From NCBI GenBank assembly GCA_036939755.1, contig JALLAZ010000150.1, positions 1-21,753 of the forward strand: DNA of 21,753 bases. The letters run 5' to 3'. Shown one piece after another: positions 1,860 through 21,603 of this stretch. The stretch's first letter is position 1, and each line of letters opens with the position of its first letter. The DNA is from Stephanodiscus triporus (taxonomy: Eukaryota; Bacillariophyta; Thalassiosirophyceae; Thalassiosirales; Thalassiosiraceae). Position numbers and translations under genes: made by a program. The notes beneath the pieces are model-generated. The model did no database searches. It saw only the letters and a program-made list of their open reading frames with translations, and had not been told where the DNA came from.

Positions 1860-2079
1860 CCCCGTCGGGTGAATGCAATGTTTTAGGTTTATGAATTCTC
1901 TGTCGGCCTAATGTGGCCGTGCGAAGAAGGCTGCGTCTGGTTCTAGTCACGAGTTCCGATGAGTCAAGAGTGACGTCGGACTTCCCCCCCGCCCCACACA
2001 ACGCAAAATCCAAATCGCCCAAGTCGCAAGATGTTGTGTGATCCTAAAGCCAAACATATTACTACTTAGATATCTGAAG
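1860..2079. promoter_or_regulatory. Divergent intergenic region, likely shared promoter
   Basis: These 220 bp separate the start codons of two divergently oriented genes (the membrane protein on minus, the ferredoxin-like protein on plus), so both 5' UTRs and core promoters should fall here. A run of seven C residues occurs near 1984-1990. I see no convincing TATA box or repeat. The assignment rests on gene geometry alone. Confidence 0.35.
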
Positions 2080-3804
2080 ATGAGACATGGCGCAACATTG
2101 GTGAAGTTGGCCGCATTTTCCATCGCCACCCAAGGCGGTTCAACCGCCTACGTAATCTGCCTTGACAGCCAAATCCGAACACATCGATCGGAGGGTGTTA
2201 GCCGAGGACTGCACTCGAGTCGTCATCGCCCGAGGACACAACGACGGCAGAAGCCGTCGCCTCTATTTTCTGACCCAGACGGCGATGAAGTCAATTATGA
2301 CCCCAATCGATGGATCAGTTCAGATGTTCAATCGTCGTTGGGGGACGCGAGCTGGGAGGAATCTCTCCAACGCAGAGAGGATGGGTCATTGTGGAGCTCT
2401 TATAGTAGCTCCGACGACGATGGCACTAGCGAAATGATATCGGACGAAGCAAAATTCACGACCGAAGCAGATGGGGGGGAGGAGGCATGGCTTGATGCCC
2501 TGGCCGGCATCGCCGCCGATGAAGTGGAGTTCATGTCGAAGGAAGCCGATCGGGCGGACAAGGTGCGCCAAATGCAAGAGATGGGCTTTGGCGCGGAATC
2601 GATCGCGTCTACTCTCGGAGTAGCAACGGACGGGGAACTCGAGACCGATCAAACCAACGAGGTATTCGAAGCTTTTAAAGCCGAGACGGCAAAGACTGGG
2701 TTCGGGTTGATGGTCGAGGATGACGTTGATTTGCAAGCTGTCGAAAGTCATACACGGGTGGAATGGGACGACGAAACCAATGAGCCCGTGAGAGCACAGT
2801 ACGTGTATGTAGACGAGGTGACATGCATTGGATGTACCAATTGCGCAATGATCGCCCAGTCGACTTTCTTCATGGAAGGCGAGCATGGAAGAGCGAGGGT
2901 ATTCCAACAATGGGGAGGTGAGGTTTGGAGTTTGCCTCGGAACTCGGAACACATTTTCTAACACGCATCTAACTGCTAACATCTCATCAACTATTGTACG
3001 TCCTTATTCGAATAATGCTGCATGGAAAACCATGTTTCAGATGATGATGAAACAATAGCGATAGCGATTCAAACGTGCCCAGTGGACTGCATCCACTAGT
3101 GAGTACATCCATCAATTTTCTTAGAGAGTTGTTTTCCGTGCATATTGATCAATGATTTCTCTGCCTTTTTCAGTGTTCCCTATGATGAGCTGAAGCGCTT
3201 GGAGATTGATCGGCGTAATCAAAATATTAACTTCAAGGCACGGCTTGTCAATCAGGGTGAATATCGATCTGGCGCTGGATATCAAGCTAGGTATGGCGGT
3301 GGAGCACTCTTCACAGATCAGCAACTGATCTCTGGTAACATGGGAAGTCGCTGCAACAACTGGTGAGTAATTGATCATGCATATGCATGTATGCTACGTA
3401 TGTCAATGGAGCGTGAATTTCACGGCCTGAGACTTTGGTTGACTTTGGAACTTGCCAAGTACGACACGTACCATACCGATCTGGCATGGAGTACACCGCC
3501 GATCTCGGGCTATCATTCTTTCGGTTGGTTTTCCATCTGGTTCGAATTTCTTGAATTTCGTTCTCGAGTATTCTTCCTATCGTAGTAGCGAAAACCTGCA
3601 TTTTCAACTTAGGACCTCACTTTTTTTGTTTATCTCTTATTCTCCGTCGTGCAAAGCCCATCTCGTGGATGTAAGAATTGTCCGATGTTCGGGGTTGGTC
3701 TAAATCCTGAATTCCAAAAGAAAGAGAAAACTCGCAAGGAAAAGATAGCAAAAGCAGAAATGAAGAAAAGAATGGAGAGCCAGAACAAGCGAGCAGAATT
3801 GTAA
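2080..3804 (+). CDS. [4Fe-4S] ferredoxin-like protein, four exons, probably plastid-targeted
   Basis: Exons are 2080-2917, 3041-3098, 3174-3362 and 3657-3804; the introns (123, 75 and 294 nt) are all GT-AG and phases agree, giving 410 residues. ATG 2080 begins a hydrophobic leader ending near STA-YV, which resembles the diatom plastid cleavage site with Tyr at +1. Residues 40-235 are acidic and low-complexity. A single-cluster ferredoxin domain follows: CIGCTNC at 249-255 and CPVDC at 292-296, with RARVFQQWG between. It resembles the ferredoxin module of plant plastid DnaJ/ferredoxin proteins, but no J domain is present. The C-terminus adds CX2CX4CX2C (359, 362, 367, 370), then NPEFQKK and a basic helix ending KRAEL. 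Intron 3 splits Cys362 (TG/C); without splicing the frame stops after NNW. An AATAAA overlaps the end at 3805-3810. Likely role: plastid electron transfer or Fe-S chemistry; partner unknown. Confidence 0.8.
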
Positions 3805-7899: not shown

Positions 7900-9040
7900 T
7901 ATTCATCCTCGTATCGTCCTCCAAGAAATATCCTCATCAAAAATATAGTCCTCTTCATCTTCATTGCCATTGCTGTCATTGTCGTTGTCCACCACTATCT
8001 TGCCACCATCACCATCGTCTTCATTGTCATAGTCATCACCGGCATCAACCAACCGAGGGAACCAGTCGTAGTCTGTCTTCTGCCACACATTGCAGAGCAT
8101 CCTCTTATGTTTGATCGCCATCTCCCAATAGTTGCCGTTGCCCACTCGACTACCTCCTTGCTTGGCGCATCACACACCTCGTTCATCTTGTCAATCATCA
8201 CAGTCATCCATTCCTCCCACTGCTGACAGATGCATGTCTTGAAGGGCTTGTTGACGCCAATGTTGAGTGGCCGACACAAGCCCGTGCATCTGCCAGCAGG
8301 AATGATGTGAATCACCTCAATCCCCAATGCCATGATCTCTGACACAACTGACGCAATATGTGACATCGCTACAAGTTGAGCAGCATGACTGGATGGAGGA
8401 TGGATGCCTGGAGATGGGGGGTTCACCAAAAGGTAGAGCTTGAGCTCATGCGTAGATGGACGTGGGGTCAAGGGTGGGCAATTCTTTTTGGGCAATATGC
8501 CCATCAAGCTTACCTTTGAAAATAATCATCGGCATCTAAAAATCTCCAGCAGCCATCACAGTGAGTGCTGCGGTAGCTCATTTCGTCCCGTCTGTTGTCT
8601 TCCTCACACTCACTATCTTTGCCCCTCAAACTTTTGTAAGAAAAAGGACGAGGCGTCTGGTCCATGTCCTACATCAAATGTGGATCACGACAAGGGCCAA
8701 CGAGAAGCTGACAAGTTTCCACCATGAACTCCATCACCTTGTCAACAACGTCTTGCAGTGGACGCGTAGCCTCATTTGTCCACTCCCGATGATGATAGAC
8801 ATACTTATGCTTGCGCATAAAGCGCTCTACCACCTTGTACCGGGCGTTGAACAACTTATTGCCAAACATCGTCCCGAGCAAAGCGGATGTCTTAAATGAC
8901 ACGATTGCATGCCAGATGCTGATACCCTGCTCTTGGCAAGCAAAGATCCACATGAACACCAGCTCCTCCTCAATAGAGGGGTGCTGCCCATTGGGACAAT
9001 GTACAAGGAGGTGCACCAAATTTTGGTGAACCTGCACCAA
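7900..9040 (-). pseudogene. Decayed pogo/Tigger-type DDE transposase
   Basis: Read right to left, minus-strand frames give a CENP-B-type DNA-binding half (HPSIEEELVFMW, then FKTSALLGTMFGNKLF and ERFMRKHKYVYH), then DDE_1 catalytic parts: MDQTP at 8651-8668 (first Asp kept), ALTVMAAGDF and MPMIIFKGKLDG near 8500-8570, VMLLNL near 8375-8393, IPAGRCTGL with PLNIGVNKPFK near 8238-8300, and finally VWQKTDYDWFP near 8070. Damage: in-frame TAG at 8669-8671 and 8536-8538, another inside the second-Asp motif, and frame changes near 8500, 8365 and 8140. The second and third catalytic Asp positions both read Asn (LLNL, PLNI). In life such an enzyme cuts and pastes its element at TA dinucleotides. Terminal repeats were not identified. 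An acidic low-complexity tail covers 7900-8030. Confidence 0.7.
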
Positions 9041-9068
9041 ATTTGTTGAAACACCAAATTTTGGTTCA
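9013..9068. repeat. Three tandem imperfect copies of an ACCAAATTTTGGTGAA-like unit
   Basis: Three imperfect copies lie at 9013-9030, 9034-9050 and 9051-9068, each centred on ACCAAATTT and ending with a TTGAA/TTGGTTCA variant. Each unit is itself nearly palindromic (CACCAAATTTTGGTG). They fall just before the recognisable N-terminus of the pogo-like transposase relic, so they could be internal binding repeats of that element or a chance microduplication. Confidence 0.4.
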
Positions 9069-9259
9069 TGTCAAAGTTCACACCATGCACAGGAACAAGT
9101 ATGGTGAGAACTGTAGAAAGGTTATTACATCCCTCTGACATCTGACCTGGCTAGCTAAAAAAGTGAGTTTTAGACCTTCGCACTTTGGTGTTTAGGCATT
9201 GATTATGCCCTGGCATATGGTAGATAACTACTCAAGATAAAAGCTTATGCTGAGGCTCA

Positions 9260-11876: not shown

Positions 11877-13079
11877 TTAAAATCTAATGTCTTCATTCGC
11901 GTCACGTTCAAGATGCGGCATGTATGTATTCCGAATTTGATTAATTCCTATCATTCTTGCCCGCATGTTGTAGAGTAGGACAAACATTTTCAACACAATC
12001 CTCCGCTCTCCTCTCTCTTCGTACACAAATCTATCCTTCACCCTTGGGAAAGAAGCCTGCATTGTGAGCATTCCCCACTCTGCCGTCTGCCGTGCCGATG
12101 TTGCCTGTCTTTTTTTCTGAAGGTCAAGTTTCCTCAGCCGGCGCGTTGGTGCTTTGGAACCCAACTGGTCCTGGCACGATTTATACAAGTAATTCCTGTT
12201 CACACTCCCGAATGCCGAGTCAACGCAGCACATCCCGCCGGTCGTACGATAGACATTCTCCAATTTGTCATAAATCTTACCAAACTCCGCAACCTGACTG
12301 TCATGAACACATCCGGGGACGTTGAAAAATGCAATTGGAATTGTTCCGTCAGGGCAAAAGCAGAACACCGAAGTCACGTAGTGGTCATGCGTCCACCCGT
12401 TATAGAATCTCTCCTGCATATCCGAATTACCGGACGACTGGAGATATAACTTTAGCCCATCCATTGTCGCCCAGCAATCGGTCAAAAGGGGGTGTCGCTC
12501 CGCAAATGCCGCCTTGAATGTTTCGATATCCTCACTGGAGGGGATAGCAATTCTTGCCAGCGGATCATTTTTGAACGTCTCCACCATTAACCTGATGCCG
12601 AATCTCAGATAAACAGACAGGTTGGAATAGGTCAGTCCAAAAACAAGTTGTAAAACATTAAGCGAGCCCCTGGTGCGCGTCCAAACTAACACAAGCCCGA
12701 GGCAATCCGCCGGCTGAACTTTTCTCTTTCGCCCACGGGTGTAATCAAATGCAACAATCATCCCAGACGCGTCAAAAGGTGTGTGTCCTGAAAACATTGG
12801 ACCAAACTTCTCGAGGATCCTGTCGAAGGACTCGCAGTCAAAGCCCATCATTGTGATGTACGCTTGATCATTTCGTGACGCAAGCAATCTTCGCCATGGC
12901 GACAGTGCCAGCGGAATAAGCGCACTGCGAGGAATTTTGCGGTAGCGTCGTCGGCGCTCCTCAATCGAGAGAGTCTTGAAGAAGTCCTTCCGGAGGCGGG
13001 AGTGCTTGTAGGGGCCCCTCTTCTTTCTTACGTGACGACGGGCAAGGCAAAGAAGGAGGGCGGAATCCAAGAGACGCAT
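11877..13079 (-). CDS. PIF/Harbinger transposase (DDE_Tnp_4 type), intact
   Basis: This is a 400-residue intact frame from ATG 13079, close to the usual size of HARBI1-like nucleases. The N-terminus is basic (RRHVRKKRGPYKHSRLR), then a helical region. Catalytic residues are visible: CWATMDGLKLY (Asp207), NVPGCVHDSQVAEF (Asp260), CCVDSAFG (Asp287) and RQTAEWGM (Glu334). The first, third and fourth would be the DDE triad that binds the two metal ions for DNA cutting and strand transfer. Between the first two are NGWTHDHYVTSVFCFCPDG, typical of the fold. No stop or frameshift is present, so recent activity is plausible. The stop is 17 bp from that of the opposing ORF. Upstream, 13080-13472 carries no gene and should contain the element's promoter. 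Confidence 0.9.
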   Translation of the reverse strand: MRLLDSALLLCLARRHVRKKRGPYKHSRLRKDFFKTLSIEERRRRYRKIPRSALIPLALSPWRRLLASRNDQAYITMMGFDCESFDRILEKFGPMFSGHTPFDASGMIVAFDYTRGRKRKVQPADCLGLVLVWTRTRGSLNVLQLVFGLTYSNLSVYLRFGIRLMVETFKNDPLARIAIPSSEDIETFKAAFAERHPLLTDCWATMDGLKLYLQSSGNSDMQERFYNGWTHDHYVTSVFCFCPDGTIPIAFFNVPGCVHDSQVAEFGKIYDKLENVYRTTGGMCCVDSAFGSVNRNYLYKSCQDQLGSKAPTRRLRKLDLQKKRQATSARQTAEWGMLTMQASFPRVKDRFVYEERGERRIVLKMFVLLYNMRARMIGINQIRNTYMPHLERDANEDIRF

Positions 13080-13086
13080 CGCAAAG

Positions 13087-13472
13087 GATGAGGCGGTAGG
13101 GACAGCGAGGTCAGCTCTCTAAATGGAGAGATGTGGGAGGCACAGATTTTGTGACAACTGAAAAACTTAAGAAACTAGGGGAACCATGAGCTTCCCCTTG
13201 CTTCTCGTAGAGAGATACTGTAGGAACAGTATGAAGGGAAATGTCTCGATTTTTCCCTTGTCCCAATTGTACTGGAGACTGTAGTAAACTGAGACATCTC
13301 TCCCTTTTCCTACATAATTATCAAGGATACAAAGGAATCAATACAAAATGGGAAGATACCGAGACAAAATTTAAGACCACGAAGCAGAAACTCCAGGGGC
13401 AGCACAAGGGCTGTCACACCGACACGCAGGTCTGGCCCCGCCCCGCCCTCACCCCACCCCTCCACCCCGAGT
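13087..13472. other. Non-coding 5' flank of the Harbinger transposase
   Basis: The stretch lies between the transposase start and the right inverted repeat. It contains no coding frame I trust and becomes C-rich towards the end (13430-13470), mirroring the G-rich continuation of the left repeat. It should hold the transposase promoter and subterminal binding sites. Confidence 0.5.
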
Positions 13473-13486
13473 TTAAGCCCACTCTA
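13473..13486 (-). repeat. Right terminal inverted repeat of the Harbinger element
   Basis: Complement of the left repeat. Its outermost three bases, read on the minus strand, are TAG and form the stop codon of the synthase frame that enters from 13487. Confidence 0.85.
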
Positions 13487-16400
13487 ATAAGTGCGCGCCC
13501 CCAATATTCCCTCAACTCCGTTGTGGCGGGAAAAAAAACTTGATGCTTTTTCCACCATCAGAAAAGCCGCAGATGTGCGCTGGGGGGCGGTGCCGGCCAG
13601 GTCGCTTGAGTAGAATTTGAGATCTTGATGATTCGGTAAGATCAATTTTACCATAGCAGACTGACTCCTCATTGCGCCGCACTCAACAAATTTATTACAC
13701 CCTTCTTTGAAATGTATGTGTTCGATGGTCGCTTGCCACTGCACTGGTTTGGTCATCTGCAAAGGCAGTAGTTTTCGAATTTCAGCTACAGATTTGTACG
13801 GGCGCCCTGTCACGTTCGAATACACAAGGTGATGTCGAGGCATCTGTATGCAAGTCCTGGCTAATACACGCCTAAATTCATTAACTGCAGGCATCATCAG
13901 CACTGTATCTATGAAGCAAGAAATTTGGATGCATGGCATGGTCAGATATGTCTGTGTTACAAAAGCAAAAGCAAAATGATGCTTGATATAACAAAGAAAC
14001 CTACGATTTGCTGTCTTGACAGGGAGCTTCTTTGCGGAGATCTGGCTCCTCCTTCCTTCTTCAAGACCTTCAGCGTTGTTCGTTCCAAGTCCGTTCACGT
14101 AGCTGACAATGAGGTCGATACTACTTGTGGTTCCGCCACAGACAAAGACATTCCTCTTGATTTCATCAGGGCTGCGGCTGTGGTCACTTATTACATTTGC
14201 AATTGAGCAATGGAACCGCTTACACAGCAATTCAACATCTTTGCGAAGAAGACCTCGTATGTTGCAGAGAGAAGATCTTGTTTTTAGCTTGGTGAACTCT
14301 TCGCACTGTACTCGAACAAGGTTTAGGGCATCCTTGAAAGAGATTGCTCCAGCAAAGTACAGCGCGGCAAACTCTCCGACCGAGAAGCCAGCAACAATCG
14401 TTGCTTGTGACATCAATAAAGCTTCACGCTGTTTCATTATCTCAATTGATACAATGTTCATCACAGTAACTACCATCTGTGCCACATTAATATCATCTAT
14501 CGTCGAGCTAGTACACAGCTCGAGTATGTCCAAGTTTAACACCTCAGATGCCTCGTGCAACATCGCCAAAGCATTTGGGTACAGCTCAACATCCTTGAAC
14601 ATTCCTACATAGGTGCTTCCAAGACCAGCAAATAGTATTGCAACTGTATCTATCGACTCGGCAGTGACCGCCTTGGCTGTATTTCCAACGTATTGAGTGT
14701 GTGCTTTGCAGAATTGACCCTTTGAGGTGACTGCAAATGGCCGAAGTGTTGATCCTTCGCCGTATTCTGTCAAAGGCATAACTGTTGCGCCTGGGTTTAC
14801 CTCACATCCATCTGAGAATATTACGGGACAAAACTGCATCACTCCGTGATCTGCATAGTGCGAGTTGATGTTGGGAGTAAGAATGTGGCAATTATCCCCG
14901 ACTGTGAGAAAGTCCAACTCGCGCAGTCCACCGTTTTCAGGGCTAAAGAAGACTTCTTTTCCTATCTTTGAACCCATTAATCGAAGCCAATGACAAAATA
15001 TCTCTGTACCAGAGAAAGGTACAAAAACAGTTTGAGTGCAGAGGAATACCAAGTCACTGAGAAAATACCAACCCATAAACTGTACTGAGTAGAAACGAAT
15101 TGTTCCAGTAATCATGGGCCCACCAAAGAATGCCAACTGCAGGAGTTTGATCATGAGCATCAACAAGATGGATCCAAGTATGAAAGTTGTTGGAATCATC
15201 AAGGCAAATCCTACGGGCCCAAATGACCCAGCAAACACCGCAAGACATCCCACATAAATAGCTACATACGATCCAATAGCAATGACAGGCATAATGAACT
15301 GAGCGATATTCATTACAACTGCATACAACCAGAAGGGAAGTTTCGTCGTCAATTCTTGGGGTTGTGTCAAGTCTGATTGGGATGGTTCTCCAATCATTCG
15401 TCTCGCTTGACGCTGACATCCTGAAACTCTTCTGGCATTTGTCGTCGATGACTCAAAAATAATAAGGGGCGATCCAAAGGCTGTGCCATTATCCCCGACA
15501 CGTGTGTTGTGACCAGTGCAAGTTTCAGCACCAATAGTTACATTTTTTCCAAGTTTGGTGCCACTGAGAATGATAGACCTCTGCCCGCAAGAAGTATCAT
15601 TCCCAATTGAAATTTGGTGGAAACTAACTCCATCCCAACTCTCAACAGAGGTTGTGATATACGTTTGCATTCCTGTGTGAACACCGCCTTTCACGGTCAA
15701 CATTTCCATACCAACCCTCAACGAGCAATATGTTAACCAAACTTTAGACCCATCAAGCTTTACTCCTAAAAGCTTCAAATAGAAGGGATACGACGAGGTC
15801 GTCTCTAAACTTCGCTGGAGTGAAAATGAAAATGCAGGACTCAAGAACAACCGATCTAGAAGCCATTTCCTCAAGGCAAACCATTCACCTGTGTAAACAA
15901 ATCCTTCTTCTAGCCTTGGAATCAGCATTTTCTTTAGCAACGCGGTGACGATCTTAATTATTGGGACAAAAGAGCAATAATGTGAGACAACAATTTGTCA
16001 ACAGTATCATACCATATGCACACAAATTGAACTTACAAGGAAGACGAGACCACACGTGTATGAGAAAAGGGAAATCATGTATAGCAAAACACCGGCTTCG
16101 CCGAACTTATTTGCCAGTATTTGAGCAATGATCGCCCCTACGTATAGGCAGCCAGAGATCAGAGTAGGAAAAATGAAGCAGCATAAAATCTGAGCAGTCT
16201 TGAACAAACTACTCCTCTTTGGTCTCCAAGGTCTTCTGTCCAACAAACCTCGATTGTATTCTATTTTGGCTGGCGAACCTACTAAGAATTGCATTGGTTC
16301 TGTAGTGCTACTGCGGTAGTCAACCAGAGCTTTCGGCACAACATCAGACCCTTTGAAAATGAATGAATCATTCACATGTGAGATAAAACATGTTCAACAG

Positions 16401-19400
16401 GACTTATCCAAAGTAACGGGGAAAAGAATCAGACTTACAATCATGCACACTCGAGCCTCCTAAGAGTACCGATCGAGTCCCTAGCCGTACGTTTTCTCCA
16501 ACCTTAATCTGCATCATTTTGAATAAATGCAACGATGGTAAGAATACATCGACTCTAAAAAAAATGCTTGCAACGATACAAATGCAGTTCACTCACTTCT
16601 CGTAATTCAAGCATTCCTCTCACTATTTCAGATGTATTAAAGCAGACTTCGAACTCAACCACAGTGTCATCTCCAATCTGTACAAGGTCGGGCTCAAGCA
16701 AGCTGAAGCGGAGATCTGTTGAGTTTTAGGCAGGTAAATACAACCGAAACAGCCATGTGTCACTGAACTCACCATGCATTTTCAATTGATACGTTCGTCC
16801 CCAAACTTGCTCCAAGAGCACGCAAGAAGTACCCTGCTAGCTCAGTGTCATCAATTGCCCAAGTATAGAGCTTCGTAGAGCTGATGATTCTTCTCAAAAG
16901 CCACCACTTGAGAAAATACCAGCTGAAAACTACTGCTTTGCCTTCTTTGTACCTCCCGATGATTATCCATTTAATAGCGAGTACAATAAAAAGATGAACA
17001 AAGCAGCCTCCTGCCAGAATGGCTGGGATCAATGCCCCCCCAATCTTCCCAAACCATGCCAGAGAGCGCGCAGATACTACTAAAGTGCCAATAGTAGGTA
17101 CAAAGAGTACGAATGACATAAAAAGCAGTCCAAACCACTGGAGAATGCGTCTCACTATCGGATGTAAAGCCTTCTCTCCATCAGGAAGGAATATTATAGG
17201 CCTTGGATCGCCTGCAAGCAGCAAGTCCCCAGTTTCTGAGAGATGCTTTGAGAGCGATCGTAAAGTCTGATGTGCGAAAATGTCTTGAACAGGCACTTCC
17301 CTACCACCAAGATGAGAGCCCAGTGCTCTTGCAACCAGTACCGCAGATAGAGAAGTTCCACCAATTTCGAAGAAGTTTGAAGCAGGCATGATGTCATCAA
17401 TTGATACTTTCAACACATTTGACCATACTAAGCATACTCTTTTTGTCATTTCGAGGGCATCCCTGTCCTCCTCCACATTATTGATCATATTTAATTGACG
17501 ATACGGTTCCTGTTTTGCCAGTAAAATGAGCTGCTGTATATCAAGCTTGCGGTTCTTATTTAGCGGGAACGAATCAATCGCGAAGTATTTCTTTGGGACC
17601 ATGTAAGGTGGGAGCTTAGCCTCTAAATAATTCATCACTTCGGTAGCGGAGAGTTCTTTAGTTTTGTAGAGCAATAACTCGCCCTCGCTCACCATTACAT
17701 GGGCATTCTTCAGTTCACTTGGTAGGATATTGATTATTTCAGAAGCTTCTAGTCTGAATCCATTGATCTTAAGCTGGGTGTCAATTCGACCTAAAAATTC
17801 AATCCTACCGTCGCTTCGCCTCTGGATGTTATATGTGAGTGAGAGAGAAGGGTGAGCATATGTGATGATTGGCTCAACTGATATAGGTGGACGCACACTC
17901 AACTTACTTTTGCTAGATCGCCTGTTTTATAGCAACGCAGGTCCGACCCCATCAGATCTACTGTGAACCTTTCATCTAGTTCAGGTCTGTTCAAATATCC
18001 ATTGCAGACGTTCGCACCAGACACCCAAAGCTCTCCAACTACATTCACTGGAGTTTCCAACCCACTGGCAGGGTTGATGATGTATGCTTTTACGTTCGAG
18101 GCAGGGAAGCCAATACAAATATTCTCTCCATCAAACTCACCACAAAGGGCGTGAGCTGTCAACTCTGTAGGTCCCAAACCAATGTATAGTTTTGGTACCC
18201 TTGATTTCCAAGCTAACATCACTGCTAGGCGAGGAGCTTCTCCAGCAACCTGTATGGCTTGAATATTGGGAGCAACTCTATCGATATCAAGAACGGAAAG
18301 AGCTGATGGGGTGCACACAAGTTTGTTGACTCTCCCCTCTATTATGGCCGTCTCAAAGTTAACACTGGAGTCGGGTAAGACAACCGTCCCTCCTCTGCAG
18401 AGTGTTGGCAAATATTGACGCAAGCTCATGATAAATGAAAGAGACGAAAACAAGAGTACTTTGTCGCTCTGTTGCAGGTCAAAGAAACCACACCACCAAT
18501 TAACTAGATTCAAGACATTTCCATGCGTGATGATAGCACCCTGAATAGTTGGGAGAGAGTCAAATCATTTTCGTTTAGACATGATGGATGAGTAAAGGAC
18601 GATTGTTCTCTCATGTTACTTACCTTCGGTAGTCCAGTTGTACCACTGGTATAAAAGTATCCAAATACACTGTCTCGATTTCTGGGTGCAACATCAAGAC
18701 ATTCACTTGCAACACATTCATGAGCTTCACCCAATGTGACGAGCTTGAAATCATTTGCAAGGATTTCAAATTTATCAACAACGCTGTTATCAATCAGCAC
18801 TAAACAAACACCAGCGTCTTGAAGGATCATTTTACTTCTCTCGACTGTAGTCTTCTCGGGATCCACAACAACAATAGGTGAACCATACGACACAGCGCCA
18901 AAGATTGCTGATATGCCTTGGGCGGTAGATCTGATCACAACACCAACAGGTTCTCCATATTGTAGACAAGAGCTTAAGTATGAATGAACACTAGATGACA
19001 TGGTTCCGAGCTCACCGTATGACACATTTTTTTCATGAGCGCCATAGCAAAATAAAGCTGCTTGAGTTTCTGAATTGCACGCCCACTCAAGGACACTCTG
19101 AACAGGCGATTGAAACTCTATGGTTGTATCATTTGCCAACAGTGCAATGCTCTTGTCTTTTTCAGGGGTAATGTCATAGGAAAGCAAAGAGTTGCCATGA
19201 CCGGATGAGGCAATATTTGCCACCAGCAGGTGAAAAGCTTCAGCAAGGCGCTGACCTGTTGACTCATTGAATAAATCAGTAGATATGGTCAGATCACCTT
19301 CGATGCCACCCTCTTCATTGTTTCGTATGAACATGTGCACTTCAAACTTCGAGATACTTGAACTAAAAGTCTTCAGCTGAAACTGCAGCTCGTCTTCGGG

Positions 19401-21603
19401 TGGTGGGCTGATGTCTTCAAGCGTCCACCATTTTCGTTCTTGCAGTGCAAAGAAGGCTTGGAAAATTGGTGTCCTGCTGCTGTCTCTTGGTACTCTTAGT
19501 GCCTTCACTACATCATGAAATGGCACATCGGCATGTGCCATTCCTCCCAACAGATTCTCACGAACTTGGCGAAGTAGTTCTCCAAAGTTCATGTCATCTT
19601 GAAACGTTGCTCTAACTGAAACCTCATTAGCGAAGTAACCAATTAAGTCGTGAAGTCCCTCAGAATTACGATTTGCCAGAGCGACTCCAACTGCAAAATC
19701 CTCACCGCCCCCCATGCGATGCAACAACAACATGTACACGCTGAGCAGTCCAGCGTAAAGGTTCGCACCATGAGATGAAATGGAACACCTGAATGAATTG
19801 ATGGTGTTGTAGTCGATGTTTATCGGGATCTGCAAACCCTTCGATCCAAGTGATGATGGGCGCTGCTTATCAAGTGGTAGTTTCAACAGTGGAAGGTCGT
19901 TCAATTTATCTTTCCAGTAGTCTAGTTGCCTGTGAAAGTCAAGAGCAATAGAGAGAGAAAATGACATTAGTTAGAAACTACCACAACTATTTGCTCCTTC
20001 CTCTTACCATACTCGGCTTACCTTTCCTCTTCCCCATACTCAAGGAGACATTTTCGGTTCCACATGGTCCAATCGATGAAATTGGGATGGGTAGCAGTCG
20101 TTCTGATTCCAGCTACATTTCCAGTTGATCGAATAGCCATGTATGCTTCAAGTAGCTGGCGTCTATAACGTGAAAGGAAGGTGAGGGGAGATATTTCATG
20201 TAAGTCTTTGAAAAAAAAGTGGGAGAATGTACTTCTAGAAAGAATTAATCATTACTCACCGAAGAATTACGAGAGCCCAGGAGTCAGAGCCCACGTGGTA
20301 TTGGCTCAAATGAAGAAAATCAGATCCATCCACGTTCTTTATGATAACTCCTCGTAGAATTGGAGGATCATAGAGAGGGAAGATGTATTGGTTTTCCGTC
20401 TTGATGACACTCCGGAGTTGCTCCTCATTCTCAACAGATGTTATGACTTTGATTTCAAACATTCCTCTGCTAAATGGGAGGGGAGCACCTTTTGCATGAA
20501 CTTAATTCCATCATTTATCTTCACAACTGTTCTTAGAGTGGGTTGCTGCTCAACGACAAACATGAAAGCTCGACGAATGATATCCACATCAATAGCTTCC
20601 CGAGGAAACTCAATCGTAGTGCTCATGTTGTACATACAAGGATTTGTTTCCCACAGCGCGATCATTTGCTCTTGACTATGAGATGCGGGAAACCACTTGT
20701 TATCGTGTGAGTCTTCCAAAGCGACTAGTTTTGGAAAGTCCTGAGAAGAAGCCTTTATCTCAAGCATTCTCGATGCTAGTTCCTTTACGGTCGGGTTAAG
20801 AAAGAACTCATTTTGCGAAACTTAAAGTCGTACAAGAGTTGAGGCATGAGAGATGTTAGATCCTGGTGACAGCTGGAACGAGATACTTGGATGAAAACAA
20901 CTCGCTTACCTTGGATGTTCACATCTTGCTCAATGCGACAAATGAGTGCGATGGTATCCAAAGAAGAACCACCGAGTTCAAAAAAGTCGGAAGACAGCCC
21001 AATCAAAGCAATATCTACATTGAGTACTTTGGAAAAGATAGTCTTGACTGTAGACACCATTGCATCTAGCCCCGAGTCGGCGTCGGCGCCTTGATCAAAA
21101 TATTTGGGGACTCCCCCCTCGTGCGCGACGATCGGTGCTTCGACGGCGTTAGCGCCTTGATCAAAATACGTGGGGACTCCCCCCTCGTGCGCGACGATCG
21201 GTGCTTCAACGGCGTTGGCGCCTTGATCAAAATACGTGGGGACTCCCTCCTCGCGCGTGACGATCGGCGCTTCAACGGCGTCGGCGCCTTGATCAAAATA
21301 CTTGGGGACAACGTCGGCGCCTTGATCAAAATACTTGGGGACAACGGCGTTGGCGCCTTGATCAAAACACTTGGGGGCTTTCCCTTTGCGCGTGACGGTC
21401 GGCGCTTCAACAGGGTCGGCGCCTTGATCAAAACACTTGGGGACTTCCCCCTCGTGCGCGACAATCGTCCCCGCCGAGGCGAACGGCGCCTCGTCAGGAT
21501 TGGCGCCAGCGCGATGATTGAACACGCCGCTAAGGATGTCGGAGTAGGAGGTGCCATGCTTGACACGAGAGTGGGCGGCGGCGGTGGAGGAAGCAACCCT
21601 CAT
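13484..21603 (-). CDS. Pls/PosA-type nonribosomal peptide synthetase fused to an acyltransferase
   Basis: I assemble eleven exons on the minus strand: 21603-20910, 20820-20260, 20162-20022, 19929-18624, 18540-17908, 17821-16773, 16702-16597, 16508-16439, 16350-16037, 15952-14005 and 13908-13484. All ten introns are 70-97 nt with GT-AG ends, and codon phases agree at each junction. The product is about 2,415 residues: repeat linker, carrier, condensation, adenylation, carrier, six-helix membrane region with three soluble hexapeptide-type domains, acyltransferase. By analogy with epsilon-poly-lysine synthetase it should activate an acid, hold it on phosphopantetheine, and build an amide-linked product at a membrane. 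One frameshift (about 20480, a C-run) breaks exon 2; sequencing error or true lesion cannot be told apart. ATG 21603 is the first ATG of its frame, but upstream exons beyond the window are possible. The stop TAG is contributed by the adjoining transposon end. Confidence 0.85.
13608..14653 (-). other. Synthase domain: FabD-like acyltransferase (AT)
   Basis: VAILFAGLGSTYVGM opens the domain; AGFSVGEFAAL holds the nucleophile Ser (14383-14381, about residue 2149); NHTVLMMPA holds the catalytic His (about 2275), created by joining 14005 to 13908; PVQWQATIE and FVECGAMRSQ close it. Ungapped comparison with E. coli FabD puts Gln (14308-14306) at the place of the carboxylate-binding Arg117 and Leu at the place of Gln11. 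The Ser-His pair is kept, so transacylation is plausible, but malonyl specificity is doubtful. The domain is in the same exon as the membrane region, so the fusion is not an assembly artefact of distant exons. Confidence 0.85.
13909..14004 (-). other. In-frame 96-nt intron in the acyltransferase domain
   Basis: The donor GTAGGT at 14004 and acceptor TTCATAG ending at 13909 bound 96 nt with no in-frame stop. Removal gives LPVKTANHTVLMMPA, which aligns without gaps to FabD LPVSVPSHCALMKPA; keeping it inserts 32 unrelated residues in place of the catalytic His. Confidence 0.8.
14668..17200 (-). other. Synthase region: Pls/PosA-type membrane part with hexapeptide-like domains
   Basis: Six hydrophobic helices are visible, paired as in Pls: two after the carrier (WFGLLFMSFVLF; AILAGGCFVHLFIVLAIKW), two in exon 9 (ILCCFIFPTLISG; LLYMISLFSYTCGLVFL) and two in exon 10 (YAVVMNIAQFIMPVIAIG; FALMIPTTFILGSILLML). 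The family marker KWIIIGRYKEGK follows helix 2. Three soluble segments with hexapeptide-like turns lie between and after the pairs: KVGENVRLGTRSVLLGG with FLVGSPAK, ISIGNDTSCGQRSIILSG with LGKNVTIGAET, and KIGKEVFFSPENGG with LTVGDNCHI. In epsilon-poly-lysine synthetase these three domains iteratively make the peptide bonds; here that is inference. Confidence 0.85.
17236..17458 (-). other. Synthase domain: second carrier protein
   Basis: NFFEIGGTSLSAVLVARAL carries the attachment Ser (about residue 1269), and DIFAHQTLRSLSKHL forms the final helix. It sits directly between the adenylation domain and the membrane region, the same order as in Pls/PosA enzymes. Confidence 0.9.
17540..19105 (-). 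other. Synthase domain: adenylation (A)
   Basis: Core motifs: YTSGTTGLPK (A3, split from the following GAIITHGN by the intron at 18541-18623), IGLGPTELT (A5), GELWVSGANVCNGYL (A6), YKTGDL (A7), GRIDTQLKINGFRLE (A8) and PLNKNRKLDI (A10, Lys about 1204). The enzyme family forms an acyl-adenylate with ATP. By ungapped eye alignment to the gramicidin synthetase GrsA pocket, position 235 is Ile (codon 18432-18430) where alpha-amino-acid-activating domains have Asp. Confidence 0.9.
19187..20698 (-). other. Synthase domain: condensation (C)
   Basis: The family motifs appear in order: ASHSQEQMIALW (C1), VEQQPTLRTVV (C2), SQYHVGSDSWA (C3, near 20297), NFIDWTMW (C4), FAVGVALANR with LIGYFANEVSVR (C5) and HADVPFHDVVKAL (C6). 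The canonical HHxxxDG is YHVGSDS here: second His and Asp are kept, first His and Gly are replaced. The frameshift near 20480 lies between C2 and C3. In this family the domain joins the acyl group on the upstream carrier to the downstream one. Confidence 0.85.
20764..21066 (-). other. Synthase domain: first carrier protein (PCP/ACP)
   Basis: Residues about 180-250 read as a carrier domain, with DFFELGGSSLDTIALI carrying the phosphopantetheine Ser (Ser214). A spliced joint (20910/20820) continues it as FFLNPTVKELASRMLEI, the usual last helix. No adenylation domain precedes it, so it must be loaded by another protein or by the acyltransferase of the same chain. Confidence 0.85.
21076..21450 (-). 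repeat. In-frame FDQGA repeat linker of the synthase
   Basis: Protein residues 52-176 contain seven FDQGA copies. The full unit is 22 residues (66 nt), for example FDQGANAVEAPIVAHEGGVP plus a Tyr-containing pair, and two shorter units of 11-12 residues lie in the middle. The units are very similar at DNA level, suggesting recent tandem duplication. The composition predicts a flexible spacer ahead of the first carrier domain. Confidence 0.85.

Follow-up and report, generated by a model that had tools for sequence, protein, structure and literature searches.

A single gene on the minus strand of a Stephanodiscus triporus contig, running from 21603 to 13484 in eleven exons and ten introns, encodes a protein with the domain order T1-C-A-T2-membrane/hexapeptide-AT, that is, two carriers (T1, T2), condensation (C), adenylation (A) and membrane domains, and an acyltransferase (AT), as assigned from Pfam and NCBIfam. 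The window, by which we mean the whole stretch of DNA analysed (21,753 nucleotides), is not unique in this respect, and judged by its sequence it holds a member of a wider algal family whose usual order is TE-T1-C-A-T2-membrane/hexapeptide-AT, with a thioesterase (TE) at the N-terminus. We read the protein, at somewhat less than an even chance, as a membrane-anchored assembly machine of one protein and one module in which an acid and an acyl group would be joined.

Gene structure and domain content

The gene is a real, single coding unit, and a chance origin is excluded by a match to an independent protein, with 56% identity across 99% of the 1,015 residues searched. Its exons, followed by domain spans converted from protein positions, are listed below.

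20910..21603, minus strand: exon 1, with the ATG, a tandem-repeat leader and the first half of T1 (PP-binding, 53.0 bits)
20260..20820, minus strand: exon 2, end of T1 and start of the condensation domain, with one frame break at ~20441-20490 (comparison with P0001)
20022..20162, minus strand: exon 3, condensation domain (alignment to relatives)
18624..19929, minus strand: exon 4, condensation domain up to the adenylation motif TSGTTGLPK (Pfam and alignment)
17908..18540, minus strand: exon 5, adenylation core including the substrate pocket (pocket alignment)
16773..17821, minus strand: exon 6, end of the adenylation domain, T2, first helix pair and start of the first hexapeptide domain (Pfam, hydropathy, alignment)
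16597..16702, minus strand: exon 7, first hexapeptide domain (acceptor shifted by 13 bases, giving a gap-free match to relatives)
16439..16508, minus strand: exon 8, first hexapeptide domain (alignment to relatives)
16037..16350, minus strand: exon 9, first part of the second helix pair (hydropathy and alignment)
14005..15952, minus strand: exon 10, second and third hexapeptide domains, third helix pair and most of AT, including GFSVGE (one open frame)
13484..13908, minus strand: exon 11, end of AT, with the His of the TANHT motif, and stop codon (alignment and motif)
19161..20689, minus strand: condensation domain (Pfam)
17522..19067, minus strand: adenylation domain (profile matches)
14678..17128, minus strand: membrane/hexapeptide terminal domain, TIGR02353-like (NCBIfam, hydropathy)
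13631..14644, minus strand: acyltransferase (NCBIfam and structure-sequence match)

All ten introns are bounded by GT...AG and measure 70-97 nt, with intron 6 at 70 nt once its acceptor is relocated, and all ten exon junctions are gap-free in alignment to P0001 and P0004. Together with the Pfam matches, these features bear out the strand, extent, domain order and exon and intron numbers given in a preliminary description of this DNA. The phase-consistent exons of that description hold at every junction, but exon 2 contains a frame break. The membrane part and most of AT share one exon (15952-14005), and the end of AT falls in exon 11. The leader in exon 1, which is putatively coding, contains a repeat array at 21078-21467, and the TE motifs that relatives carry at that place are absent from it.

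Pfam PP-binding matched T1 and T2 at 53.0 and 47.0 bits, AMP-binding matched at 168.3 bits, Hexapep at 32.1 bits (cut-off 27) and Acyl_transf_1 at 33.5 bits (cut-off 32.7), while Condensation scored 19.7 bits upstream of the frame break (cut-off 30.6) and 175 bits downstream of it. As described earlier, the membrane domain has six paired helices, since hydropathy gives three pairs, at residues ~1001-1057, 1234-1288 and 1491-1550 of the downstream piece. Two further weak hydropathy peaks lie within AT. This last domain carries the nucleophile motif GFSVGE and an active-site His in TANHT. A ketosynthase domain, which a PKS-NRPS hybrid would have, was absent from the Pfam matches of the two window protein pieces. 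The NCBIfam models of EntF and MxcG, which are single-module C-A-T NRPSs, match the C-A-T core far below cut-off; unlike them, the window protein ends with a membrane domain and a cis AT, and its relatives carry an N-terminal TE.

A family of algal relatives

The fusion of membrane domain and AT is common to eleven other proteins, including one from Ditylum brightwellii and P0004, which its name identifies as a complete transcript from MMETSP. These eleven, drawn from the matches listed (20, 79 and up to 120), carry both domains and make up the family rows; what fell outside the family counts consisted largely of polyketide synthases and Pls-type proteins of the classic kind, and some of these proteins were reused as comparison rows. 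Eight of the relatives were found with the window's own sequence, to which they are 33-56% identical. In P0003, P0007 and P0021 the frame occupies 95-97% of the longest contig, as in cDNA. The window's assembly also contains a silicon transporter match at 758.8 bits; silicon transporters fit diatoms and also their silicified relatives. With the independent relatives, this match agrees with the earlier view of a single membrane-type protein in a probable diatom.

A TE was present at the N-terminus in all seven of the relatives that reach that region. The window contig has none; it ends 150 bases beyond the ATG, and the remaining family domains are present, as is a pocket of the IMRSQAGAHK type. 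When the window's assembly was searched with PF00975, one match was returned above cut-off (44.8 bits), in a 368-residue frame on C787 that, judged by eye, resembles a general hydrolase. A search with the P0001 TE gave no counterpart among the matches listed in the assembly. Both searches were intron-blind and scored the best candidates only.

The algal family is apparently undescribed, and no description of the same architecture was found in open-access titles and abstract openings among the matches listed. For a bacterial counterpart, two short condensation-domain peptide patterns gave 33 loci in GTDB contigs, and the membrane/hexapeptide domain was absent from the frames of the three inspected, namely L028, with the order C-A-T-KS-AT-T-TE (translation judged by eye), and L030 and L035, both C-A-T-TE-MFS by Pfam. 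A scan of viral contigs for the family confirmed nothing.

The family is distinct from Pls/PosA synthetases

The preliminary description had taken the protein for a Pls/PosA enzyme with extra domains. In common with epsilon-PL synthetase and PosA, the window protein has an A-T-terminal membrane domain order, with six helices in three pairs and three soluble domains between them, and the NCBIfam model of the Pls/PosA terminal domain, TIGR02353, is matched over almost its entire length (model positions 42-694 of 695). However, the score of 196.9 bits is less than half of the cut-off of 423.1, and P0004 and P0007 score similarly low (194.8 and 209.9), in contrast to the classic relative P0010 (602.2). 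In the membrane-domain tree, a 100/100 split set the family apart from the remaining rows of Pls type.

The adenylation pocket points in the same direction. Its code is IMRSQAGAHK in 8 of 10 family rows and VMRSQAGAHK in the other 2, so that all ten rows have Ile/Val at position 1 and Arg at position 3, rather than Asp and Glu. Among 21 other rows, both acidic residues are present at these positions in 13 and Asp only in 3, the remaining 5 being unalignable or not found. In PosA-type enzymes, the pocket Asp and Glu bind diamino acids, and both residues were found to be conserved and essential in the work on PosA (PMC10522769). On the low score, the pocket lacking Asp and Glu, and the tree split we reject membership of Pls/PosA, and an ordinary synthetase of the epsilon-polylysine type with added domains, here a T-C head (TE-T-C in relatives) and an AT tail, is very unlikely. 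Judged from the pocket, the substrate of the A domain is probably not an alpha-amino acid. Loss of the pocket Asp is also known with beta- or omega-amino acids, aryl acids and keto acids, and the predicted substrate class is therefore a loose one. Proteins of the P0023 type (C-A-T-membrane) share a similar pocket, IQRSQGGAHK, and the membrane-domain tree nests P0023 within the family (89/96); P0023 differs in ending without an AT, and its branch is long and its placement unsure.

The acyltransferase groups with the host malonyl transferase

In the AT tree, which contained one host MCAT only (C539), the twelve family ATs and this host protein formed a single clade (100/99) that left out the 4 FabD and 12 further ATs sampled. 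A GFS motif was found in 10 of 11 relatives, with GLS in the other, and in 0 of 198 other proteins compared. The window AT scored 110.7 bits against TIGR00128 (cut-off 260.9). It resembles MCAT/FabD in its GFSVGE motif, its active-site His and its best solved-structure match, human mitochondrial MCAT (2c2n, 96.9 bits), and differs in its fusion to an NRPS and in having GLGST for GQGSQ. A further difference concerns the pocket Arg, which we take to be the residue that binds the malonyl carboxylate: 8 of 12 rows have R at this position, P0004 has H and P0094 has K, whereas the window and P0001, its sister, have Q. Because the AT groups, within the sampled set, with the host's own malonyl transferase, the membrane NRPS-AT fusion probably arose in eukaryotes. 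The old gene transfer of a bacterial-looking core that the preliminary description proposed is conceivable.

Changes shared by the window and P0001 were counted at sites invariant in six relatives, a definition that depends on six mutually related rows. Such changes occurred at 23 of 116 sites in C, 9 of 53 in AT, 15 of 113 in the membrane domain and 5 of 117 in A (Fisher tests against A: p 2e-4 for C, 0.012 for AT and 0.019 for the membrane domain). The condensation motif is YHxxxDS in the window and P0001, and HHxxxDG in 6 of 6 other rows covering the region. Since C and AT have changed and A hardly has, the pattern suggests that the window protein and its sister activate the same acid as their relatives with a different acyl partner. 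The earlier idea that C and AT together acylate the product gains indirect support from these shared changes relative to A, but the membrane domain is also above A and the signal is therefore not exclusive to C and AT. Either the C or the AT step could be degenerate in the window's branch, given the YHxxxDS motif and the loss of the malonyl Arg.

State of the window copy

The frame break inside exon 2 lies in the condensation domain at ~20441-20490 and, like the N-terminal TE of the family, was a feature beyond the preliminary description. Both sides of it match P0001, residues 333-471 in one frame and residues 457-540 in the next. A small intron at this point is disfavoured, since the two flanks overlap on P0001 with zero residues missing. 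As the contig stands, the break would halt translation.

The broken frame, the lack of a TE on the contig, the failure of the P0001 TE to find a match elsewhere in the assembly among the matches listed, and the altered motifs YHxxxDS and Q/ANH could all be signs of a dying gene with drifting catalytic motifs, but we regard this as improbable. Apart from the break, conservation of the window copy matches that of intact relatives: private changes affect just 7 of the 364 sites that are otherwise invariant, a number equal to that of P0002 (7/364) and lower than those of P0001 (12/369) and each of the five remaining rows, and none of the 89 such sites in its C domain is privately changed. Downstream of the break, 2,072 codons run without a stop until the end, across clean junctions, and the motif changes are common to P0001, which has an unbroken frame. 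With the contig ending so soon past the ATG, a TE could sit on unassembled sequence. That separate neighbouring genes or a misassembly mimic one gene is scarcely credible; the window is known from a genomic contig only, but its order recurs in proteins that come independently from several sources, P0004 is by name a complete transcript, the membrane part and most of AT lie within one exon, and the AT and membrane trees are concordant on the main groups.

Proposed mechanism and alternatives

From the domains and their pocket residues, we infer the following chemistry. The A domain would adenylate a carboxylic acid without an alpha-amino group and load it onto T2; this acid may be neutral or acidic, since the Asp/Glu of cationic-polymer synthetases is replaced by Ile/Val and Arg. 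The cis AT, as kin of the host malonyl-CoA:ACP transferase, would load an acyl group onto T1, malonyl in most relatives and, in the branch of the window, probably a different acyl, and C would join the T1-borne acyl with the T2-borne acid. The membrane domain may then transfer the product on T2 to an acceptor within or at the membrane, in a single round or in several, and the N-terminal TE of relatives may remove stalled or finished chains.

Asp235 is known to be lost where the substrate is not an alpha-amino acid, and its loss would fit a beta- or omega-amino acid, or some other acid whose amine is distant from the carboxyl, which C would acylate with malonyl from T1 to give an N-malonyl amide. 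The position of C between T1 and T2, which requires a nucleophile on T2, and an AT Arg of malonyl type in 8 of 12 rows are consistent with this chemistry, but a pocket-facing Arg with no acidic residue disfavours a free ammonium group, and we consider it unlikely, though distinctly conceivable. The same pocket, in which each of the ten family rows tested has Arg and lacks Asp, and a terminal domain of the polymerising type would suit an anionic or polyester polymer synthetase, in which a hydroxy- or dicarboxylic acid is polymerised across the membrane and AT and C supply a starter cap. For this account and for the main reading alike, Aureobasidium offers a fungal parallel: its polymalate synthetase, a eukaryotic membrane NRPS with A, T and C domains and six helices, and without a TE, is credited with making polymalate, from a substrate other than an amino acid (PMC9210645, PMC11905612). 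The likeness to it is by description only, however; its helices are described as N-terminal, unlike those of the window protein, and the available description mentions neither an AT nor a second carrier (PMC9210645). There is also no sign of iteration in the algal protein, and seven relatives have a TE, so that a polymer synthetase of this kind is an unlikely account. We retain, as the tentative reading, the one-module machine that joins an acid to an acyl group.

Implications

It is possible, although doubtful, that algae own a class of membrane enzymes in which an organelle-type malonyl transferase is fused to a one-module NRPS, with a fixed non-amino acid and an acyl partner swapped between lineages, giving acyl-capped membrane products or polyesters. 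If so, the NRPS-acyltransferase fusion would have been made in eukaryotes, as opposed to a bacterial system adopted whole, and the range of Pls-type membrane domains would extend past cationic amino acids. The pocket is near-identical from the window to the most distant members, and one assay on one member could thus fix the substrate for all; Ditylum is a culturable diatom. To our knowledge, NRPS products of diatoms are hardly known, and this giant membrane enzyme of a silica-forming alga points to a natural product yet to be found.

Gene structure and domain order

The window is the whole of contig C150, which belongs to an assembly of 21.65 Mb in 1,324 contigs. Exon-by-exon reconstruction placed one giant gene on it, and the features in and around this gene are as follows.

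13484-21603, minus strand: giant gene, ATG at 21603 to stop at 13484
21078-21467: 66-base tandem repeat in exon 1 of this gene, where relatives have a thioesterase
11877-13118, minus strand: 413 aa open frame encoding a DDE_Tnp_4 transposase domain (42.0 bits), directly downstream of the giant gene
8669-9070, minus strand: weak match, under the cut-off at 16.8 bits, to a Tc5 transposase DNA-binding domain
1963-2961, plus strand: reading frame whose product has a ferredoxin-type domain for a single 4Fe-4S cluster (Fer4_13, 33.8 bits)

The reconstruction gave ten introns, 70-97 bases long, each starting with GT and ending with AG, the same number as in the preliminary description, and protein alignment to two relatives was free of gaps across all 10 exon junctions. 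The exons, earlier described as phase-consistent, join cleanly at these junctions, but exon 2 holds a single remaining frame break. Around it, residues 333-471 of P0001, the sister of the window protein, were matched in one frame and residues 457-540 in the next, and since both flanks match the same relative, the reading frame is broken here rather than a piece being lost. To describe the state of the copy, we counted private changes, taking for each row the sites at which the other seven do not vary. The window had 7/364, as did P0002, followed by P0004 (9/366), P0001 (12/369), P0003 (14/371), P0021 (15/372), P0008 (23/380) and P0007 (111/468); the broken condensation (C) domain of the window had 0/89. 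The few private changes in the window copy suggest that the gene has not been long disused. The likeliest explanation of the break is an error in sequence or assembly, or else a very recent origin.

A domain scan, run on the pieces upstream and downstream of the break, returned the order carrier, condensation, adenylation, carrier, hexapeptide, acyltransferase. The NCBIfam Pls/PosA terminal-domain model covers the protein over model positions 42-694 of 695, and hydropathy shows three helix pairs in this region, in agreement with the six paired helices noted earlier. The C-terminal tail matches malonyl transferases, with human mitochondrial MCAT as its closest solved relative.

A family sharing this domain order

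Three protein searches yielded 20, 79 and 171 proteins within thresholds (the best 120 of the 171 were listed), and across them a membrane domain followed by an acyltransferase (AT) was found in at least 11 proteins. P0001-P0008, obtained with the window's own sequence as query, show 33-56% identity to it in a 1,015-residue region at 66-99% coverage; P0021, P0022 and P0094 were obtained with relatives as queries. P0008, from the diatom Ditylum brightwellii, is the sole member with a named organism. A silicon transporter was matched in the window's assembly (758.8 bits), and with the diatom name of P0008 this makes a diatom the probable host. The name of P0004 marks it as a complete MMETSP transcript, with a frame of 2,473 residues, and in P0003, P0007 and P0021 the frame takes up 95-97% of the longest contig, as in cDNA. 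Together these indicate that the fusion is made as a single message in at least one relative, which answers by proxy the test by separate transcripts that the preliminary description set.

All seven relatives that reach the head region (P0001-P0004, P0007, P0008, P0021) carry a thioesterase (PF00975) upstream of the first carrier, according to precomputed domains and a fresh scan of three of the seven; the other 4 of the 11 start downstream of this region and fall outside the count. No thioesterase was found in the window, whose contig ends only 150 bases beyond the ATG, so that loss and truncation look alike there. The P0001 thioesterase as query gave no match among those listed for the assembly, and the PF00975 profile gave one, on contig C787. 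The 66-base repeat can be read without a stop in several frames of either strand. A DNA search, of a kind that passes over simple repeats, found no other copy of it in the assembly; the repeat is possibly an expanding leader or an intron array.

Distance from Pls/PosA synthetases

The gene had been called a Pls/PosA-type synthetase. We reject this identity on three grounds: the model score, the tree and the adenylation pocket. With the NCBIfam terminal-domain model, whose cut-off is 423.1 bits, the window scored 196.9, and two family relatives scored 194.8 and 209.9, compared with 602.2 for a classic enzyme. A terminal-domain tree with 32 rows, some of them on long branches, split the family, with P0023 (a C-A-T-membrane protein lacking the AT) inside it, at 100/100 from the 19 other rows, among which were bacterial, fungal and further Pls-type proteins and the host gene on contig C213.

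The substrate code was read from an alignment in which we took its positions from gramicidin synthetase numbering as we presume it to run; family rows P0005 and P0006 lack the region. The code was IMRSQAGAHK in 8 of ten family rows, VMRSQAGAHK in the other 2, and IQRSQGGAHK in P0023. Among 21 other rows, code positions 1 and 3 held Asp and Glu in 13 and Asp alone in 3, and 5 were unalignable or unmatched. The PosA paper (PMC10522769) describes this Asp and Glu as conserved in Pls/PosA synthetases, and mutants in either residue as inactive. The near-uniform family code, without Asp and Glu, indicates that the adenylation (A) domain probably activates one and the same acid in every member, that this acid is not a diamino acid, and that it probably has no alpha-amino group.

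Other Pls-like arrangements were also seen. The window's genome has a second Pls-like gene (C213, L007, L020), with an AMP-binding head resembling acyl-CoA ligase; its membrane domain, a partial row, clusters with fungal rows. P0142 (2309 aa) is a Pls-type fusion with the membrane domain first and, by eye, a C-terminal thioesterase and TauD-like part, and P0109, P0135 and P0195 are Pls-type fusions in which precomputed annotation shows FMN-dehydrogenase, phosphopantetheinyl transferase and acyltransferase domains. Outside the Pls-like proteins, loci L030 (54-5396) and L035 (12652-18060) hold actinomycete C-A-T-TE NRPS modules, each fused in a single frame to a Major Facilitator transporter.

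Origin of the acyltransferase tail

An AT tree was built from 12 family acyltransferases, the host malonyl transferase (contig C539), 4 bacterial FabD and 12 other AT domains. One clade, at 100/99, held the family together with the host protein; the corresponding support was 99/98 in an earlier tree without FabD and with 19 other AT domains. At the nucleophile, 10 of the 11 relatives have the motif GFS, which occurs in 0 of 198 other proteins compared; the remaining relative has GLS, as do the host C539 protein and one bacterial FabD (Ruminiclostridium). Human MCAT aligned to the window tail shows GFSVGE. Because of the clade with the host enzyme and the motif pattern, the case that the fusion arose inside eukaryotes from an organelle-type enzyme appears good but not final, with one eukaryotic MCAT in the tree.

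Proposed chemistry and changes in the window branch

The best account of the family's chemistry, as read from its sequences, is that the A domain would load a non-amino acid onto the second carrier (T2), the AT would place an acyl group on the first (T1), the C domain would link this group to the T2-bound acid, and the membrane domain would pass the joined product on. A precedent is fungal polymalate synthetase, described as a membrane NRPS working on a non-amino acid (PMC9210645, PMC11905612); by its description (PMC9210645) its helices lie at the opposite end from those of the window protein.

The window and P0001 were sisters at 100/100 in both the terminal-domain and AT trees. At sites invariant in six relatives, changes shared by both numbered 23/116 in C, 9/53 in AT and 15/113 in the membrane domain, an excess over the 5/117 in A (p 2e-4, 0.012 and 0.019, respectively), with 1/19 in T2 and 0/11 in T1. 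In both proteins, the condensation motif HHxxxDG has become YHxxxDS, retaining the second His, the malonyl-binding Arg of the AT is Gln (His in P0004, Lys in P0094), and the residue preceding the AT active-site His has changed from Phe to Asn. The simplest reading of these changes is that, in this branch, the acid would be unchanged and the acyl partner altered.
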